Shown here piece after piece: positions 9,515-17,163 of a DNA stretch of 33,765 nucleotides. The notes under the pieces were generated by a model. That model saw only the letters and a list, made by a program, of their open reading frames with translations. It had not been told where the DNA came from and did no database searches. The first letter of the stretch is position 1. Each line of letters begins with the position of its first letter. Position numbers and translations under genes: made by a program. Source of the stretch: an uncultured Sulfurimonas sp. (lineage in GTDB: Bacteria; Campylobacterota; Campylobacteria; Campylobacterales; Sulfurimonadaceae); the NCBI GenBank assembly GCA_937900945.1, contig CALCGG010000192.1:1-33765 (forward strand), given 5' to 3'.

Positions 9515-9907
9515 ATGAAAGTTTCAAAACTTGTTTTATCATTTCTATTGAGTGTATCCCTCTTTACTCAAGTTCTATCGGCACAGATAGCTTCTACTGA
9601 TTCGATTCTTGGACAGTCTGTTTCGGAATCTTCTAAAGACAAACTTGTTCAGATGATATCTCGTGAAGATGTATCAAAAAGATTTCAAGAGTTGGGTGTG
9701 GATTCAAAAATTATTGAAGCGAGAGTTGCTTCTATGACGGATGAAGAAGCTTCAAAAATTGCGTATCACATTGACACATTACCAGCTGGTGCAGATGCAG
9801 GCATGTCGATTATCGGTGCTATTGTTTTTGTTTTTATAGTTTTACTGATTACAGATATTGTTGGAGTAACAAAAGTTTTTAGCTTTACAAAACCTATCAA
9901 CAACTGA
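9515..9907 (+). CDS. PA2779-family membrane protein
   Basis: 130-residue secreted membrane protein. It has an N-terminal signal peptide ending near VLSAQ, a helical middle part (SREDVSKRFQELGVDSKIIEARVASMTDEEASKIAYHIDTLPAGAD), and a single C-terminal helix (about 96-117) followed by GVTKVFSFTKP. This matches the PA2779 family, whose members are normally followed by a PA2778-type cysteine peptidase, exactly as here with a four-base gap. GAAGGAAA precedes the ATG. Function is unknown. Because it is always paired with a peptidase, it may be a substrate or partner of that peptidase in the periplasm (inference). Confidence 0.85.
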   Translation: MKVSKLVLSFLLSVSLFTQVLSAQIASTDSILGQSVSESSKDKLVQMISREDVSKRFQELGVDSKIIEARVASMTDEEASKIAYHIDTLPAGADAGMSIIGAIVFVFIVLLITDIVGVTKVFSFTKPINN

Positions 9908-9911
9908 TAAA

Positions 9912-10868
9912 GTGAAAACCGACAAGCTTTTCTCTTTATTTTTTACAGTAGCCGCTTTGATTATTTCAAGTGGCTGCGCACCTAAGAATCCTCTGCCTGC
10001 AAACAATAACTACTCTTCATATAAGATAGATGTTCCTTTTGTGTCTCCACGTTCTGAACTTTGTGCTTCAACATCGATAGAGATGGTTTCATCCTATTGG
10101 AAATCAATAACAGCTTATTCTCCTCTCTTGACACTCGCTGAGCTGGATGAGCGGACATTGATTCCTGCAAAAGGCGGTACGCTGCAGATAGAACTTATTG
10201 CCGCGGCAAGAGCTGATGGTCTGCTTGTTTATCCACTTGAGGCGACATTTGATGCACTTTTTTCTGAACTCTCCGAGCACCATCCTGTTATTGTATTGCT
10301 AAACAGAAGTTATTCCTGGTATCCGCTTTGGCACTATGCTCCGATTACGGGGTATGATGCGAAGGCGCAAACCATTTTGATGCATTTCGCCGATACGCCA
10401 AATGAAGCAGTGCCGATTGGAACATTCGCGGCTTTATGGGAGAGAAGCGGCAATTGGGGAGTTGTACTTTTGCCCCCCGGGCAACTTCCTGCATCTGCGA
10501 CGCCAGAAAAGTTCTTGCGCTCAGCATATGATCTTGAAAAAACTGGGATGACGAACGAAGCCATCATAGCCTACAAAAGTGCTCTTACTCGCTGGTCAGA
10601 TGATATCCCTACGCTTTTTGCCTTGGGAAATGCCTATTATAATTCGCATCAGATAAGTAGTGCTGAACGTGTTTATCGAGAGATATTATTGATTGATTTT
10701 AAAAATCCGTTTGCGTTGAATAATTTGGCTGATATTTTATGCCGTACCGGCAGATCAGATGAGGCATTAAAATTACTTGAGCAGATTGAGACAGATGACA
10801 TCCAAATGCAATCCATCATAAAAGCTACACGCGAAGAGATTGACAAAGGCTGTGCTCCTTTTCAATAA
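9912..10868 (+). CDS. PA2778-family C39-like cysteine peptidase lipoprotein with TPR tail
   Basis: 318-residue predicted periplasmic lipoprotein. The signal peptide ends in IISSGC, so Cys22 is lipidated. The peptidase-C39-like domain covers about 38-190, with catalytic Cys51 (in SELCASTSIEMV), His141 (LWHYAPITGYD) and a likely Asp at 149 or 161. Residues about 200-310 contain TPR-like helices (FALGNAYYNSHQISSAERVY). The start is GTG at 9912, just after the previous stop, with no strong RBS, so translational coupling to the PA2779 gene is likely. Its base composition looks richer in G+C than the neighbouring genes, hinting at transfer. It overlaps the convergent DUF3299 gene by seven bases at the 3' end. 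Substrate unknown. Confidence 0.85.
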   Translation: MKTDKLFSLFFTVAALIISSGCAPKNPLPANNNYSSYKIDVPFVSPRSELCASTSIEMVSSYWKSITAYSPLLTLAELDERTLIPAKGGTLQIELIAAARADGLLVYPLEATFDALFSELSEHHPVIVLLNRSYSWYPLWHYAPITGYDAKAQTILMHFADTPNEAVPIGTFAALWERSGNWGVVLLPPGQLPASATPEKFLRSAYDLEKTGMTNEAIIAYKSALTRWSDDIPTLFALGNAYYNSHQISSAERVYREILLIDFKNPFALNNLADILCRTGRSDEALKLLEQIETDDIQMQSIIKATREEIDKGCAPFQ

Positions 10869-11389
10869 ACAACCAAGCGGGTAATCCCATCCTTTATAAC
10901 AAATGATGCGGTTCCGGTTGCTACTTTTGCGGTTTCAAGTTTGAGCGTTCCATAAACACTTATCTGCTCGTAAGCATCTTCCATCATGACACCTTCATCT
11001 TTTTTTGTGATTACGTATATAGTTTGGTTTGCGGGTGAAGCCGGTACATGTATGCATGCTGCCTGATTTGGAAAAAAAAGGAACTTATTTACTTTTTCGC
11101 CGTCTGTATCTACGGGGACTATGTAGCCGTCAAGTTTTACTTTTTTTCCATCTACCGCTTTATTGTTCCCAGCTTTTTTAAGAGCATCTTGAAGCTCTGC
11201 GTAGATAAGAATCTCCTCTTTTGAGCCCTCTTTTACTTTTTTCACTTTATCTTTGTAGAACTGCACAACCTTTTCTTGGTTGAAGTTCGGGTCTATTAAA
11301 ACGCTCCAGTTATCAAGTTCATAGTTTGGAGTATCAGAACATGCAGCTAAGAAAAGTGCCACAAATAGAGTTGAAAATATTTTTCTCAT
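10862..11389 (-). CDS. DUF3299 lipoprotein
   Basis: 175-residue predicted periplasmic lipoprotein. The signal peptide ends LFLAAC (Cys17). The body carries DUF3299 hallmarks: LDGYIVPVD near 87-95, FLFFP at 103-107 and the conserved ACIHVP at 111-116, whose Cys112 and His114 could bind metal, followed by PANQTIYV. It is the last gene of a four-gene minus-strand operon. Its ATG overlaps the permease stop by one base. In Pseudomonas aeruginosa, the module PA4064-PA4066 (ATPase, FtsX-type permease, DUF3299) is, as I recall, zinc-regulated together with a His-rich protein, PA4063. That supports a metal- or envelope-related role here, but the function of DUF3299 itself is not established. Confidence 0.85.
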   Translation of the reverse strand: MRKIFSTLFVALFLAACSDTPNYELDNWSVLIDPNFNQEKVVQFYKDKVKKVKEGSKEEILIYAELQDALKKAGNNKAVDGKKVKLDGYIVPVDTDGEKVNKFLFFPNQAACIHVPASPANQTIYVITKKDEGVMMEDAYEQISVYGTLKLETAKVATGTASFVIKDGITRLVVY

Positions 11390-12612
11390 TACACTTTAAC
11401 CATGAGTCCATCTTGCAGACTATATCTGTATGATTTTATCGCTGGAATCACACTTGCAAGTACTGCAATAGCCATCATGACAACAAGCATGACAATCTCA
11501 TAGAAATCCGGTAGATAGCTTACATGTAAGCTAAAGTTTGCATAGAAAACAAAAACACTAAGAAGTATATTTCCAAAGACAATACCGCCTAAAACTATCA
11601 AAAATGATTCCATGGCAAAAAGAGAAAAGATAAGCTTTACACTCGCACCCAGACTTCTTAAAATTGCAATTTCTCTTCTTTTTTCATTTAATGTAGAGAA
11701 CATAGATGAGAGCATGGTAAAAATCGCTCCGACGAAGACCATTCCGGAAATAAACATCAGAACATCTTGAAAACTACTCATAAGTTTATAGAGTTTTGTT
11801 AAAGCTTTTGCAGGGATGACTGCTTTTAAATTTTCACCTCTATAGTGATTTATCTTATCCTCAACTTCTAAGATTTGCATAGAATTTTTAAGCCCAAGAA
11901 GCATACCGCTTATCTGTTTTGGCTGTATGTTCATGTGAGATAACTCTTCGCTGCTTATTTGCATATCTACAAAATAACCGCTTTGCCACTCCATGTGGAT
12001 AGCCTCACCTGCTTTGAGTTGCATAAAGACTAAATCGTCATTTGGTGTTGCACTTTTTTTCAAGATACCGCCCACTTTAAAGGCTCTGTTTTTATGTACA
12101 TGTTGTGAGTTCCCATGAGAGAGGTGCACTTTGTCACCCAGTTTTAAACCTAATTTTTTGGCTACATGTACACCCAGTATCACATCATAGAAATCGTTAA
12201 AATTATCGCCCTCTTCAAACTCTAAAAGCTTACCTGAGGAATATTGATAATGTATAAAAAAATCAGCATTTGTCGAGACGACATCGAACCCTTTAAATGA
12301 ATCTCCAACAGAAATCGGAACACTCCATTCTATTTCATCAAACTTAGATATCTCCTCATAAGAACTGTACTCTACTTCGTTTAAGCCGTCTCCTATATGA
12401 AAAATGAGATTTAGCAAAATCTCTATGGAACCGTTTGATGAGCCAACTATCATGTCGGTTTCACTTATAGTGTTTAAAAAATGGGATTTGCCTGTCTTCA
12501 CAATCCGCTCAATTCCCAAGAGCAAAACTACGCTGATAGCTACAGAAAAAACCGATAGTAAAAAAGCAGTTTTACGATTTAAAATACTTTTATAAGTGAG
12601 ATTAAAAATCAT
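11389..12612 (-). CDS. FtsX/MacB-type ABC transporter permease
   Basis: 407-residue inner-membrane permease with type VII ABC topology: one N-terminal helix (about 16-34), a large periplasmic MacB-PCD-like domain (35-280) and three C-terminal helices (about 283-305, 327-360, 371-391). The cytoplasmic stretch LNEKRREIAILRSLGAS between the second and third helices is the typical coupling motif of the FtsX domain. Such permeases usually do not carry solute through a pore. They use ATP in the cytoplasm to move periplasmic parts, for lipoprotein release, efflux or enzyme control. It overlaps the ATPase gene by four bases (ATGA) and the DUF3299 gene by one, so the three are translationally coupled. 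Confidence 0.9.
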   Translation of the reverse strand: MIFNLTYKSILNRKTAFLLSVFSVAISVVLLLGIERIVKTGKSHFLNTISETDMIVGSSNGSIEILLNLIFHIGDGLNEVEYSSYEEISKFDEIEWSVPISVGDSFKGFDVVSTNADFFIHYQYSSGKLLEFEEGDNFNDFYDVILGVHVAKKLGLKLGDKVHLSHGNSQHVHKNRAFKVGGILKKSATPNDDLVFMQLKAGEAIHMEWQSGYFVDMQISSEELSHMNIQPKQISGMLLGLKNSMQILEVEDKINHYRGENLKAVIPAKALTKLYKLMSSFQDVLMFISGMVFVGAIFTMLSSMFSTLNEKRREIAILRSLGASVKLIFSLFAMESFLIVLGGIVFGNILLSVFVFYANFSLHVSYLPDFYEIVMLVVMMAIAVLASVIPAIKSYRYSLQDGLMVKV

Positions 12613-13274
12613 ATTTGGGTCTTGTTAATGTCAGAAAAATCATAAACAGTGTTAAAGTTAGATGAGAGTGATTTGTCATGACTGACAAAAATCAGAGTGG
12701 AGTTTTGTGATTCGACCTGCTTAAAAAGCAGTTTCATAAAGCTCTCTTTCGTGTCGCTGTCAAGCGCAGATGTCGGCTCATCAGCTATGATGATTTTGGG
12801 TTTGCCTATCAAGGCTCTTGCAACTGCAACCCGCTGTTGCTCGCCTACACTCAGATTCATAGCAGGTGTACTTAAATCAACTGACAACTCCAGAGCATCA
12901 AGTAGACTCTCTATCTCCTCTTTCATATTCTTTACATGTGAGGTTTTAACTTCTGAAAATTTACAGGCAAGAGAGATATTCTCTTCAACATTCAGATAAG
13001 GCAAAAGGTTAAACTGTTGAAATATAGTCCCATAATTATCTGCGCGAAACCTGTCTTTTACAGAGTTGCTGAGTGAACCAAGTTTCGTTCCCAAAATCTC
13101 AATCTCGCCAGTAGTCGGTTCTAAAATTCCGCATAAAAGATTTAAAAATGTGCTCTTCCCACTTCCGCTTTTGCCATGTAAAAAAAGGTGTTCACCCTCT
13201 TTTATCTTTAAAGAGTTTATATCTATAATTATCTCTTTGTCATATTTAAACTGGCAAGCGGAAATATTTATCAT
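12609..13274 (-). CDS. ABC transporter ATP-binding protein (LolD/MacB type)
   Basis: 221-residue cytoplasmic ATPase, a normal size for this family. Walker A GKSGSGKST at 34-42, Q-loop Gln86, signature LSVGEQQR at 141-148, Walker B IIIADEP at 161-167 with catalytic Glu166, and switch His199 (VSHD). All catalytic parts are intact. It pairs with the FtsX-type permease encoded next, with a four-base ATGA overlap. Its ATG directly follows the stop of the LtaS-like gene (TAG ATG), so all four genes are probably one mRNA. The substrate is not evident from sequence. Confidence 0.92.
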   Translation of the reverse strand: MINISACQFKYDKEIIIDINSLKIKEGEHLFLHGKSGSGKSTFLNLLCGILEPTTGEIEILGTKLGSLSNSVKDRFRADNYGTIFQQFNLLPYLNVEENISLACKFSEVKTSHVKNMKEEIESLLDALELSVDLSTPAMNLSVGEQQRVAVARALIGKPKIIIADEPTSALDSDTKESFMKLLFKQVESQNSTLIFVSHDKSLSSNFNTVYDFSDINKTQI

Positions 13275-15296
13275 CTACTTTTGCACATCTTCGCGCTTGT
13301 TGAAATACGGAATATATTTGGCGCTTTCAAAAATACCATACGTTAAATCTTTCATCTTTTTAAGAAGTATCGGATGCCCCTCTGCATGGTTCACCAAAGG
13401 CTTATCGCTGTATATATCGTAAAGTCCGCTCATGGTTCCATCATATCTTGTTCTGAAATAATATTTCTCTCCCAATAGCCCTATGAGAGGATTTGGGGAA
13501 TGGGTAATTGTAAAAGCATATCTTTCATCATCAAACTGCGGATCAAACATATCCCGACCTATCGTTGTCGCTGTATATGAAATATTTAGCATGGAAGCAA
13601 TTGTTGGCATCACATCCGACTCTGAGACAACTTTATCATACACTTTAGGCTCTTTTATAAGCGGTGAGAAAATGATAAAAGGAACTCTCAAAGCACCTAT
13701 GTCAAGGTTGGAACTGCTTTCCCCTTTTGGTACATGTTGACCTGCATTTCCAGAGATTCCATGGTCTCCATAAAATACAAAAATGGTGTTTTTATAGTAG
13801 TCACTCTTTTTAGCTTCCTCCATAAAATGACCGACACTGTAATCCATAAATCTAAAAGAGTTGTACTCTTCTAAAGAGCTGAAACCATATTTTCTGATTT
13901 CATCCACGCTGACATCATCTCTTACTTTAAAGTCGTAACTATTGTCAGGAATCGTGTATGGTCTGTGGTTTCCGGATGTTTGAATGACACTGAAGAACGG
14001 CTCTTTCATTTGTGATAAAAAGCCATTTGCTTCATGAGCCAAATCTATATCTGAGATTCCCCAGACATCAGTTCTTGGAGCTTCATAATTCTCTTCCTCA
14101 TACAGATTTAAATTATCTAAAGACTGGTTTAACATGCCTCTAATGTTTCCCCATGAAGCTGAACCGCCTATGAAATAGGACTTCTCACAGGCTATAAAAT
14201 CATGTGCAATTGAATACTGATTTACTATCAATGGATTACGGCTTGAAGTTCCCGTAAGCTCAACATCAGGCAAACTTGTGAGTGTGCAGTAGATTGAACG
14301 GGCTGTCCCTGTTGCCGGCGAGAAGTAGTTTTTGAAATATAACCCGTTATCAGCTAATTCTTTTACATGTGGAGACGGGTTTAATGGATTTCCAGATAAA
14401 CTGGACTTGTAAGATGCAAATGACTCCATGATAACAATCACTACATTTGGATTTTTACCGATTGGATGTGTTGGAGTAATCTTGCGCTGAAAATTTAAAT
14501 TTCTAATATCTTTGTTTTTAACACCAAGATAATCTGCAACAATTGGGTAATATTTTCTAACTTTGACTTCATCATAAGAAACACGCCCATTTTTGAAAGT
14601 ATCTAAAAAATAGTGAATTGGGTTGTAAGTAAGCTGTATAGCAAACGGATGCTTGGAAAATGCCGCATCGCTCCAGCGAAGCGGATATTGTGAGAGTTTT
14701 GAGTAGCCCATGACAAACATAACCAAGAAAGAGACAAATCCGATTAAAACACCTTTTAGAACCGACAACTGCACATCTTTTTGCTCAGTGATTTTGTTAA
14801 AAAGTCTATTTGTCAAAACTATAAAGCTAAGATTTGCAACCAAAATACCAATCGCTATCCAGATGACAGAATAACTCTCCCAAACCATCTCAGCGGAAAT
14901 AAGAGGGTCTTGCAAAAATCTCACAGAGGTGAAATCAAGTCTTGTGCTAAGATAAGCATAGTAGCCAAAATCGACTACATAGAACATCGCATAAACAGCA
15001 AAGACAATACTTAAATAACCAAGCCAAACATAACGGGACAAGTTGTACCTAAAAGGTGATAACCACTTAATCCACCCCAAAAAGAACAGGGGAGCGACCA
15101 TGACAACAACCATTCGCAGGTCAAATCTAAATCCAAGCCACATAGATTTAAGTAAATCATGAGTAGTCAATGGAGCTGATGGGTCATTAAAAGCAATGTA
15201 AAAAGCAACTCTCATCAGCACAAACAACAGCGTTAAGGATGTTATAAAAACAATTAAAAATCTTAGCAGTTTTGGAAGTTTTAAAAATATGTTCAT
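13275..15296 (-). CDS. LTA-synthase-like membrane sulfatase-fold transferase
   Basis: 673-residue inner-membrane enzyme. Five hydrophobic helices (about 13-35, 60-76, 88-107, 141-162, 180-197) precede a periplasmic alkaline-phosphatase/sulfatase domain (about 280-640). Active-site residues match LtaS: metal ligand Glu291 (MESF), nucleophile Thr331 (in TGTARS), His444 (SGNHRPY), and Asp511-His512 (FYGDHG). In Gram-positives LtaS polymerises glycerol phosphate. Gram-negative relatives transfer phosphoglycerol or phosphoethanolamine to glycans or lipids, so envelope modification is the likely job here. AAAGAGAG precedes the ATG. First gene of the operon with the ABC/DUF3299 genes. That link is unusual and suggests that the transporter serves an envelope pathway. 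Confidence 0.88.
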   Translation of the reverse strand: MNIFLKLPKLLRFLIVFITSLTLLFVLMRVAFYIAFNDPSAPLTTHDLLKSMWLGFRFDLRMVVVMVAPLFFLGWIKWLSPFRYNLSRYVWLGYLSIVFAVYAMFYVVDFGYYAYLSTRLDFTSVRFLQDPLISAEMVWESYSVIWIAIGILVANLSFIVLTNRLFNKITEQKDVQLSVLKGVLIGFVSFLVMFVMGYSKLSQYPLRWSDAAFSKHPFAIQLTYNPIHYFLDTFKNGRVSYDEVKVRKYYPIVADYLGVKNKDIRNLNFQRKITPTHPIGKNPNVVIVIMESFASYKSSLSGNPLNPSPHVKELADNGLYFKNYFSPATGTARSIYCTLTSLPDVELTGTSSRNPLIVNQYSIAHDFIACEKSYFIGGSASWGNIRGMLNQSLDNLNLYEEENYEAPRTDVWGISDIDLAHEANGFLSQMKEPFFSVIQTSGNHRPYTIPDNSYDFKVRDDVSVDEIRKYGFSSLEEYNSFRFMDYSVGHFMEEAKKSDYYKNTIFVFYGDHGISGNAGQHVPKGESSSNLDIGALRVPFIIFSPLIKEPKVYDKVVSESDVMPTIASMLNISYTATTIGRDMFDPQFDDERYAFTITHSPNPLIGLLGEKYYFRTRYDGTMSGLYDIYSDKPLVNHAEGHPILLKKMKDLTYGIFESAKYIPYFNKREDVQK

Positions 15297-15315: not shown

Positions 15316-15323
15316 TTTATAAT
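15316..15323. promoter_or_regulatory. Overlapping divergent -10 boxes (LtaS-like operon / RHH-like gene)
   Basis: On the minus strand TATAAA (15316-15321) lies 19 bases before the LtaS-like ATG. On the plus strand TATAAT (15318-15323) lies upstream of the 72-residue gene. The two share four base pairs, so polymerases could not occupy both at once. The region is AT-rich and neither -35 box is clear. Confidence 0.35.
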
Positions 15324-15380
15324 TTTACCTTTATTTAGTTACACTTACATTAACAAAATTGAAAGAAAAATGACTAAAAA

Positions 15381-15599
15381 ATGAAAAATGATTTAAACTT
15401 TAAACTCTCCAGCGAGATGATGGAGAACATTCAAGCATACTCTGAATTACTTAAAAAAGATACAAATAGCATACTCAAAGAAGCGCTGGAACAATACTTT
15501 GAAAATGAACTAAAAAAATTACATAGCAAAAATCCAGAGGATGAAAATGCTATGACAAATCTAGACTATGACGAATTTTGGGAAGGGGTGGAGTTATAG
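15381..15599 (+). CDS. Small ribbon-helix-helix-like protein
   Basis: 72-residue protein. The first 45 residues (LNFKLSSEMMENIQAYSELL, then KKDTNSILKEALEQYFENE) have the strand-helix-helix pattern of CopG/RHH DNA-binding proteins. The tail is acidic with a DEFW element, as in some antitoxins. No toxin gene follows: the next gene is on the other strand. It may be an orphan antitoxin-like regulator of its own promoter, and it sits divergently from the LtaS-like operon, which it could also control (inference). A tiny frame ATG-ACT-AAA-AAA-TGA at 15370-15384 overlaps its start. The family assignment is tentative. Confidence 0.65.
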   Translation: MKNDLNFKLSSEMMENIQAYSELLKKDTNSILKEALEQYFENELKKLHSKNPEDENAMTNLDYDEFWEGVEL

Positions 15600-15611
15600 G
15601 TCTATATAAAC

Positions 15612-16358
15612 TCAAGCTCTGATTTTTTCCCACAAACTCCCTATATACTCATGTACCGCTATTTTTGAAAGTTGAAAATAAGATGCACTTGGGGCTCTTA
15701 AATATCCGCTAAACTCATCTTTATGAAAATCTGTCGGTGCCGCAATCGGGTTTAATCCTGCGTTTTTAAATATTTTCATAGCTCTTGGCATGTGTGTTGC
15801 TGATGTTACCAGCACAAATGGTCTCTCACCTACCAAATCTTTTGCAAAAAGGGCTTCCTCTTTTGTATCTTTAGGCAATCCAAAGACTACCATGTTATTT
15901 TTTTCTACACCGATAGCTGATGCTAAAGCCGCATTCATCTGTGCATTTGATGTATTTGTATCTCCCTCATATCCGGTAAAAATAATGATGGAGTCTTTAA
16001 TTTTCCTGTGAATTATTACACCTTCTAAAACTCGCTTAGTTCCGCCATCGCTGACATGTGAAGAGATTGGCTGAGTTATATCTGTGTTATGTCCATTTCC
16101 TAAAACATGGATGTATTGTACCTCTTCTTTATACTTATATTTTGGATACTGATTTTCTAAGTTTTCAATCAGATAATTTGCGAATGGCGGATATGAAAAT
16201 AAAAAAAGTAATCCAAATGCTAACAATAAAAATGTTCTGGCTTTAGTGTCTTTTTTTATAAATAGAAAAAATAATCCAATTATAAACAGTGTAAAAACCA
16301 TCCCAAACGGCTCGACAAAAAAAGTTATCAGCTTCTTTAAAAAAAATCCAAATTCCAT
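15612..16358 (-). CDS. ElyC/YdcF-like DUF218 envelope protein
   Basis: 248-residue inner-membrane protein. Two hydrophobic segments (about 10-34 and 40-60) are followed by a periplasmic DUF218 domain with VLGNGHNTD, a DGGTKRVLEG stretch, IIIFTGYEGDTNTSNA, PKDTKEEA and LVTSATHMPRA. Order and spacing fit E. coli ElyC (about 259 residues), which affects envelope integrity and lipid-carrier use during peptidoglycan and enterobacterial-common-antigen synthesis. The gene overlaps the upstream hydrolase gene by one base, so both form an operon. The enzymatic reaction of the family is not settled. Confidence 0.85.
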   Translation of the reverse strand: MEFGFFLKKLITFFVEPFGMVFTLFIIGLFFLFIKKDTKARTFLLLAFGLLFLFSYPPFANYLIENLENQYPKYKYKEEVQYIHVLGNGHNTDITQPISSHVSDGGTKRVLEGVIIHRKIKDSIIIFTGYEGDTNTSNAQMNAALASAIGVEKNNMVVFGLPKDTKEEALFAKDLVGERPFVLVTSATHMPRAMKIFKNAGLNPIAAPTDFHKDEFSGYLRAPSASYFQLSKIAVHEYIGSLWEKIRA

Positions 16359-17119
16359 TATTTCAATTCCTCATTTATTTTACGCACAACTTTTGCATCC
16401 CAAAGAATCTCTTTATGATGTAAATCATCCAACTCTATATAAAATGCAAGATTTTTAACATGTTTTTTCAACTCTCTTGCATTTTCAATGTATGTTGTAC
16501 TATCGCTCTTACTTGCAAAAATATAGGTGGGAGTATCGATCTCTTTGACAAACTTCGTATTATCAAACTTGTATCTAAAAATTCTAGAAAGGTTTAGCCC
16601 ATATTTTTCTTTTGCCAAGTTTTGAATACTGTCAAAGGAACCAACCAAAAAAAGTTTACGTACACTCTCTTTACTTGCAACAAAAGAAGCAACACTTGAA
16701 CCTATAGAAAATCCCAGCAGATAAAAATCGCCATAATTTTTCCTGACTATTTGTGCTATTTTTAAACTATCTTCTAAAATATTTTTCTCATTTAAACGAC
16801 CACCGCTTCTTCCATAAGAGCGGTAATTAAATGTAATAATCCTGACATGTGGAAATGTGTTTGATAATCTCTTGATAAGCCCAACACTGTCGTGACTTCG
16901 TCCGGCAAAGAAGAGAAGTGTTGCACTAAAAGTTGCGGGAGTAAAAACCACCCCTTCTAGTTCAATCCCATCATCCGTTGAGATGCTCAGCATCTCAAAC
17001 CTCTTATCAAGTTCATCCTCTCGATAATATGTTGGGGAGAATATCATAAAATATTGCCACTGATAAAATGCAATACCTAAAATAATTAAAGTAAAAAGTA
17101 AAAATGCCATATAAATCAT
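16358..17119 (-). CDS. Membrane-anchored alpha/beta hydrolase
   Basis: 253-residue protein with an N-terminal membrane helix (about 3-20) and an alpha/beta-hydrolase domain. The oxyanion part reads LLFFAGRSHD, the nucleophile elbow is GFSIGSS with Ser as nucleophile, and a late DDLHHKEILW supplies the probable catalytic His. It resembles BEM46/YqkD-type serine hydrolases, with unknown substrate. I chose ATG 17119. TTG 17137 overlaps the -10 box, and ATG 17110 is also possible. No Shine-Dalgarno sequence is visible, so the message may be leaderless. It is coupled to the elyC-like gene by a one-base overlap, which suggests a shared envelope-related task. Confidence 0.8.
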   Translation of the reverse strand: MIYMAFLLFTLIILGIAFYQWQYFMIFSPTYYREDELDKRFEMLSISTDDGIELEGVVFTPATFSATLLFFAGRSHDSVGLIKRLSNTFPHVRIITFNYRSYGRSGGRLNEKNILEDSLKIAQIVRKNYGDFYLLGFSIGSSVASFVASKESVRKLFLVGSFDSIQNLAKEKYGLNLSRIFRYKFDNTKFVKEIDTPTYIFASKSDSTTYIENARELKKHVKNLAFYIELDDLHHKEILWDAKVVRKINEELK

Positions 17120-17125
17120 ATGGTT

Positions 17126-17133
17126 ATTATAGT
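17126..17133. promoter_or_regulatory. Overlapping divergent promoters
   Basis: On the minus strand TATAAT (17126-17131) lies six bases before the hydrolase ATG at 17119. On the plus strand TATAGT (17128-17133) lies 30 bases before ATG 17164, which has an AGGA box at 17153-17156. Both -10 elements share four base pairs within the 44-base region between the start codons. Confidence 0.45.
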
Positions 17134-17163
17134 ACAATTCGATTCAAATTATAGGAATCACAC

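Follow-up and report, generated by a model that had tools for sequence, protein, structure and literature searches.

A ZrgBCE-type gene module lacking ZrgA lies beside an LtaS-like enzyme gene in Sulfurimonas

Four closely packed genes and their products

The DNA analysed here, referred to as the window, is a stretch of 33,765 nucleotides from an uncultured Sulfurimonas sp. of the family Sulfurimonadaceae, within a group of sulfur oxidisers (contig CALCGG010000192.1, positions 1 to 33,765). Between positions 10862 and 15296 it carries four minus-strand genes. The first encodes an LtaS-like enzyme; the other three, called the triad below, encode an ATP-binding cassette (ABC) ATPase, a permease and a DUF3299 lipoprotein. 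An earlier note on this DNA had described the four genes as overlapping or abutting, and the open reading frames (ORFs) and their junctions are exactly as it gave them.

15296-13275, minus strand: LtaS-like ORF, 673 amino acids (Pfam Sulfatase, 2.2e-45)
13274-12609, minus strand: ABC ATPase ORF, ZrgC/PA4064-like, 221 amino acids (Pfam ABC_tran, 1.5e-32)
12612-11389, minus strand: permease ORF of MacB/LolE fold, ZrgB/PA4065-like, 407 amino acids (Pfam FtsX, 7.4e-13, and MacB_PCD, 4.1e-10)
11389-10862, minus strand: DUF3299 lipoprotein ORF, ZrgE/PA4066-like, 175 amino acids (Pfam DUF3299, 4.1e-25, and the LPAM_1 lipoprotein attachment site)

The stop codon of the LtaS-like gene directly abuts the start codon of the ATPase gene (TAG-ATG, 0 nucleotides between), the ATPase and permease genes overlap by 4 nucleotides (ATGA), and the permease and DUF3299 genes share 1 nucleotide (TAATG). 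Because the LtaS-like protein, the permease and the DUF3299 protein are 60-84% identical to their homologues in other species of the family, which have matching neighbours and junctions about as close, the block is more than a chance arrangement.

Comparison of their sequences gives good support to the ATPase, the permease and the DUF3299 protein being homologues of Vibrio ZrgC, ZrgB and ZrgE, which correspond to PA4064-PA4066 of Pseudomonas. The earlier note had named this module, in the same gene order, and the Pfam assignments, the permease identity and the match to the solved structure 4HSP bear this out. Outside the family, the permease is most closely related to the ZrgB/PA4065 permeases of Vibrionaceae, Pseudomonas and other bacteria, to which it is 35-42% identical along almost its entire length, and nearly every relative examined has an ATPase homologue next to its permease. 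With this identity and the invariant His/Asp set described next, the window has the Zrg-branch ATPase and MacB-fold permease of ZrgABC(D)E/PA4063-4066, and the DUF3299 protein (ZrgE/PA4066) of those systems is present as well.

His166, His173, His206, Asp53, Asp104 and Asp192 in the periplasmic domain of the permease are invariant among 94 permeases across phyla; Trp96 and Trp209 of the permease are invariant in these sequences too. The AlphaFold2 (AF2) model of the protein (mean predicted local distance difference test score, pLDDT, 87.5) has as its fold matches a streptococcal MacB-type permease, LolE, HrtB and MacB. The best NCBIfam match is lolCE, and at 63 bits against a cut-off of 362 it does not place the permease in LolCDE; nor is this a MacAB-TolC system, since the ATPase is a separate gene and no MacA adaptor gene lies in the operon or its immediate flanks. 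Compared with the MacB/LolCDE/FtsEX family of mechanotransmission ABC systems, the operon differs in having no MacA, TolC or LolA/LolB partner and in the conserved His set of the Zrg branch in its permease.

The ACIHVP motif that the earlier note had pointed out in the DUF3299 protein is present, and both Cys112 and His114 are invariant in an alignment of 56 sequences. The protein matches PA4066/4HSP by sequence (5.4e-16) and its model by fold, with Z 15.8, a root mean square deviation of 2.8 A over 134 residues and 31% identity; the fold is OB-like (oligonucleotide/oligosaccharide-binding). PA4066, the solved homologue, is reported to lack evident zinc binding (PMC11481552). A lipobox is found in all family members read and in none of five proteins from the more distant Campylobacterota families f15 and f11, and a minority of other relatives may have one too.

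The LtaS-like protein consists of a hydrophobic N-terminal third, with about five transmembrane helices according to its hydropathy peaks, and a periplasmic Sulfatase domain; it is predicted to be a membrane phosphotransferase of the alkaline phosphatase superfamily. Glu291, Thr331, Arg386, His444, Asp511 and His512 are intact and are invariant in 27 homologues, and the Sulfatase domain aligns with the solved domains of LtaS and VP1736, active-site region included. It has the Glu, the Thr nucleophile and the Asp-His metal site (Glu291, Thr331, Asp511 and His512) expected of LtaS/phosphoglycerol transferase (COG1368-type) enzymes, and solved relatives bind Mn, Mg or Zn (PMC7576196). With LtaS and its Gram-negative relatives (VP1736 3LXQ, YejM and OpgB) it shares the membrane-anchored Sulfatase domain and the Glu/Thr/Asp-His active-site pattern, but it differs from them in being joined to a Zrg-type ABC module and in falling far under the cut-off of the LtaS equivalog NF053595 (76 bits against 970), so that it is not filed as LtaS itself. 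For brevity we call the gene and its orthologues LtaS in the following.

Absence of ZrgA and control of the block

The earlier note had also remarked on the absence of the His-rich DUF2796 gene. DUF2796 is now named ZrgA (PF10986), a His-rich periplasmic zinc protein, and at the curated cut-off none is found in the operon or in the rest of the window's genome, which extends the remark from the operon to the whole genome. The same cut-off returned ZrgA in none of 12 family genomes (11 with the triad, the window's own, G000, among them, and G443 with a triad remnant), and ZrgA is present in five of five genomes of families f15 and f11. Nearly all of 80 permease loci that were fetched have a DUF2796/ZrgA gene upstream of the ATPase, permease and DUF3299 genes, and an LtaS-like gene occurs among them only in the Sulfurimonas locus L111. 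Sulfatase-type genes lie near Zrg genes in two others, upstream of zrgA in Tepidicaulis (L158) and, at a distance, on an Anaerolineae contig (L153); both are of the arylsulfatase type, and we rejected them as further pairings of Zrg with an LtaS-like enzyme. The Tepidicaulis marinus gene (L158, 384-2060) stops 95 nucleotides upstream of zrgA on the same strand.

The Zrg system has been tied to zinc in Vibrio (PMC9820375, PMC9817125), and the Zrg and PA4064-66 systems have been reported to be Zur-regulated and linked to zinc or cobalt (PMC9817125, PMC9820375, PMC11481552). Like ZrgABCDE of Vibrio cholerae and V. parahaemolyticus (PMC9820375, PMC9817125), the triad has adjoining genes for an ATPase, a MacB-like permease and a DUF3299 protein, with the same invariant permease His and Asp residues; unlike it, it lies in a genome without ZrgA, no Zur box was found, its DUF3299 protein is predicted to be lipidated, and an LtaS-like enzyme belongs to the block. 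With PA4063-PA4066 of Pseudomonas aeruginosa (PMC11481552, PMC8561739) it shares the order ATPase-permease-DUF3299 and a DUF3299 model that fits 4HSP, but PA4063 (ZrgA) and the pyochelin context are missing, and the triad is paired with LtaS.

The permease itself may have taken up part of the role of ZrgA. Its loop at residues 166-178 holds 3-6 His in the Sulfurimonadaceae (family f1), whereas 82 other permeases average 2.0 there and have 3 at most, and this enrichment coincides exactly with the lineage that has no ZrgA. The pattern fits a history in which the module, after the loss of ZrgA, moved some of its metal binding onto the permease.

One further feature concerns the control of the block:

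15322..15353, minus strand: promoter-region element TTAATGTAAGTGTAACTAAATAAAGGTAAAAT, a conserved sequence ahead of LtaS in most genomes of the genus, whether they carry the triad or not

The element follows the pattern TTAA(C/T)(A/G)TAAG-N-GTAACTAAA, then GTAAAAT. In four genomes searched, the long form of the pattern occurs at LtaS promoters only, once each in three of them and not at all in G361; counts of a short form are close to or modestly above those of a reversed control. Judged by these searches, the element appears essentially unique to the LtaS promoter, and a regulon sharing it was rejected because the long pattern is confined to LtaS promoters and the short one stays near the control. 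The earlier note had proposed looking for Zur or Fur boxes upstream of LtaS, and none came to light: with up to 3 mismatches allowed, the window contains neither a Zur-like palindrome from family f15 nor a generic Fur box, although these queries may differ from the Zur box of the host family. Since no Zur- or Fur-like box was found and the element that precedes LtaS is essentially unique to that promoter, the triad in the window's group is probably regulated as LtaS is, via the LtaS promoter. In the group that we call B, the sequence ahead of the ATPase gene looks like the LtaS promoter; we do not claim that the triad took the promoter over there, as the likeness is limited to the core -10 part and LtaS still has a similar core in front of it.

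The palindrome used in the search comes from L016 and L017, two loci of family f15, where the near-perfect CGCAATGATATATCATTGCG and a close copy lie upstream of the zrg operons; in L015, L016 and L017 a Fur-family regulator gene follows the DUF3299 gene. Its place before zrg operons, together with the regulator gene in those loci, makes it a likely candidate for a Zur box of Campylobacterota.

Linkage of the triad to LtaS in the family

Across 173 surveyed genomes of the Sulfurimonadaceae, with at least 52% identity required of an LtaS orthologue and DUF3299 taken as the marker of the triad, LtaS occurs in 30; DUF3299 occurs in 14 genomes, each of them among those 30. The triad is therefore found in 14 of 30 LtaS genomes against 0 of 143 LtaS-less ones (Fisher p of 1e-12 in the family and 8e-7 inside the genus, values uncorrected for descent).

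In the window's genus the triad adjoins LtaS in every genome that bears it, on a side that depends on the group. The LtaS-first group (G000, G436, G401, G480 and G456) has the triad downstream, with gaps of 0 to 2 nucleotides or 4-nucleotide overlaps, and the triad-first group (G361, G025, L111 and G470; the 5' part of the triad of G025 is on a second contig) has it upstream, 40-46 nucleotides from LtaS. Each group is a clade in the permease tree, in which the permeases of the family form a single, fully supported clade. The LtaS proteins of triad-bearing genomes do not form one (approximately unbiased, AU, test, p 1.7e-10 to 1.6e-3), and in L111 LtaS groups with the sister genus g25 while the permease groups with G361 and G470. 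Because the permeases are monophyletic, the LtaS proteins are not, and the two trees disagree over L111, the pairing probably either arose repeatedly or outlasted rearrangement or exchange.

LtaS in the genus is usually flanked on one side by truA, lptF/G, a prepilin peptidase gene and uppS, mostly without the triad, and on the other by a NifU-like gene or by the DUF218 and alpha/beta hydrolase genes that are also seen in the window:

15612..16358, minus strand: DUF218 (ElyC-like) gene (Pfam 1.8e-24), conserved upstream of LtaS or the triad in many relatives by synteny
16358..17137, minus strand: alpha/beta hydrolase gene (Pfam Abhydrolase_1), a conserved neighbour of the DUF218 gene by synteny

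Between LtaS and the DUF218 gene, divergent from LtaS, lies a plus-strand ORF for a ribbon-helix-helix-like protein of 72 amino acids (15381-15599) that has no Pfam match, and related LtaS loci that were mapped have none at the equivalent place. On the other side of the block, a PA2779-family (DUF6627) gene and a gene for a PA2778-family C39 cysteine peptidase with tetratricopeptide repeats (9515-10868, plus strand) converge on the DUF3299 gene with a 7-nucleotide overlap and make a second pair named after Pseudomonas genes. In the g25 genome G492 (L194, 26-2004), genes for a low-molecular-weight phosphatase and a cation-efflux protein of the zinc transporter type come after the triad.

Proposed metal handling and the envelope enzyme

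The gene identities and the linkage to LtaS are well supported; what we infer from them about mechanism is held more loosely. We tentatively favour the explanation that a ZrgBCE-type module minus ZrgA and an LtaS-like, metal-dependent enzyme of the phosphoglycerol-transferase type form an operon-like block in which metal handling is coupled to an envelope enzyme. The ATPase would power conformational strokes of the periplasmic domain of the permease by mechanotransmission, as in MacB and LolCDE, and with a MacB fold a trans-membrane import channel would not be expected. The invariant His residues of that domain and its His-rich loop would be the binding site for a divalent metal (Zn, Co or Mn), the loop partly substituting for ZrgA, and the membrane-anchored DUF3299 protein would be the periplasmic partner of the domain. 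The LtaS-like enzyme would be the client, whose periplasmic active site is kept correctly metallated or cleared of the wrong metal, so that envelope modification could continue as the metal supply changes. That the His/Asp set is invariant from the Pseudomonas and Vibrio Zrg permeases to the window's own argues that the metal role was kept.

Several observations weigh against this coupling. All 30 genomes examined have ZnuA, whether they carry the triad or not. The triad is thus not the sole zinc or metal route, and we rejected it as a stand-in for ZnuABC. The extra loop His of the window's own permease amounts to just 3 against 2, no Zur-like box was found (see above), the Fisher values take no account of descent, and no LtaS residue separates triad-bearing from triad-less species. 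The triad is missing from 16 of the 30 LtaS genomes, and in G443 (L088, 8257-8750) it has decayed beside an intact LtaS to a remnant in which N- and C-terminal parts of the ATPase, the N-terminus of the permease, interrupted by a stop, and the C-terminus of DUF3299 have been fused by deletion; LtaS therefore has no general need of the triad. In six genomes of g25 that have both, the two are unlinked in those examined, LtaS lying elsewhere beside truA, and an EAL/GGDEF gene stands in front of the triad (loci L020 and L021, and the related L112). Because it leads the operon, it suggests a link of the triad in g25 and L112 to cyclic di-GMP.

The neighbourhood of LtaS and DUF3299 across Campylobacterota, which the earlier note had named as a check on its idea, thus gives a divided answer: the two adjoin in all triad genomes of the genus, to which the pairing is confined, but they are unlinked in g25, and in other families the triad is accompanied by ZrgA instead of LtaS. 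The idea that a phosphoglycerol-transferase-like enzyme took the place of DUF2796 does not stand, as LtaS often occurs without the triad, is found on either side of it and outlasts its decay; a one-step swap is rejected because LtaS occurs more widely than the triad does and because ZrgA was lost in g25 without linkage to LtaS.

Nearly as likely as the coupling we favour is a reading without any functional link, in which the triad serves as an accessory module for metal or stress, entered the genome at a convenient insertion site behind or between expressed genes and was inherited there, with LtaS working independently. The wide and often solitary occurrence of LtaS, the unlinked triads of g25, the decayed triad of G443 and the frameshift in the G456 permease all suit it, and the LtaS-truA interval takes other inserted genes as well, such as a P-type ATPase gene in G443. 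It accounts less readily for the constant adjacency of triad and LtaS within the genus, seen in two arrangements, for the nesting of triad genomes within LtaS carriers even where the genes are unlinked, and for the stop/start overlaps of the LtaS-first group.

It is possible, but less likely, that metal work was abandoned and that the permease and DUF3299 protein are now a LolCDE/MacB-like machine for lipids or lipoproteins. Such a machine would handle a substrate or product of the LtaS-like enzyme that is linked to lipid, for instance a phosphoglycerol-modified lipid, by moving, presenting or extracting it. The fold matches to the streptococcal MacB-type permease, LolE and MacB, the lolCE match, the predicted lipidation of DUF3299 in this lineage but not in the five f15/f11 homologues, and an LptF/LptG gene near LtaS in most species speak for such a machine; the preserved His/Asp set, which points to a kept metal role, a lolCE score far under its cut-off and the lack of a LolA/LolB-like partner in the operon speak against it. 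In the most specific version of metal coupling, a MacB-type machine powered by ATP would have the single task of loading the active site of the LtaS-like enzyme with its metal, or of cleaning it, with Zrg re-purposed from general zinc acquisition and the His-rich loop replacing ZrgA; this seems to us more doubtful still. Export of a metal chelator or complex, as proposed from genetic data for PA4064/PA4065 with the pyochelin-cobalt complex under zinc shortage (PMC11481552), is very improbable here: the homology to those proteins and the cation-efflux and phosphatase genes behind the G492 triad favour it, but no genes for metallophore biosynthesis, a TonB receptor, a MacA adaptor or TolC were seen in or next to the operon, and it would leave the presence of LtaS unexplained.

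The earlier note knew of no described system with this combination, and no report of the LtaS-triad pairing was found in the literature searched, whose coverage is incomplete; the Zrg variant with an LtaS-like enzyme is real and conserved, and it is apparently undescribed. The function of ZrgB/ZrgE-type proteins in zinc biology is debated, with an importer favoured in the Vibrio papers and an exporter in the Pseudomonas papers, and PA4066/ZrgE has a structure without an assigned function. A natural version without ZrgA, set beside one metalloenzyme, narrows the question to whether ZrgBCE can work without ZrgA, and the same system offers a way to probe whether it acts on a periplasmic enzyme instead of carrying out transport across the membrane. 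For the LtaS-like enzyme of Campylobacterota, it provides a first genomic handle.

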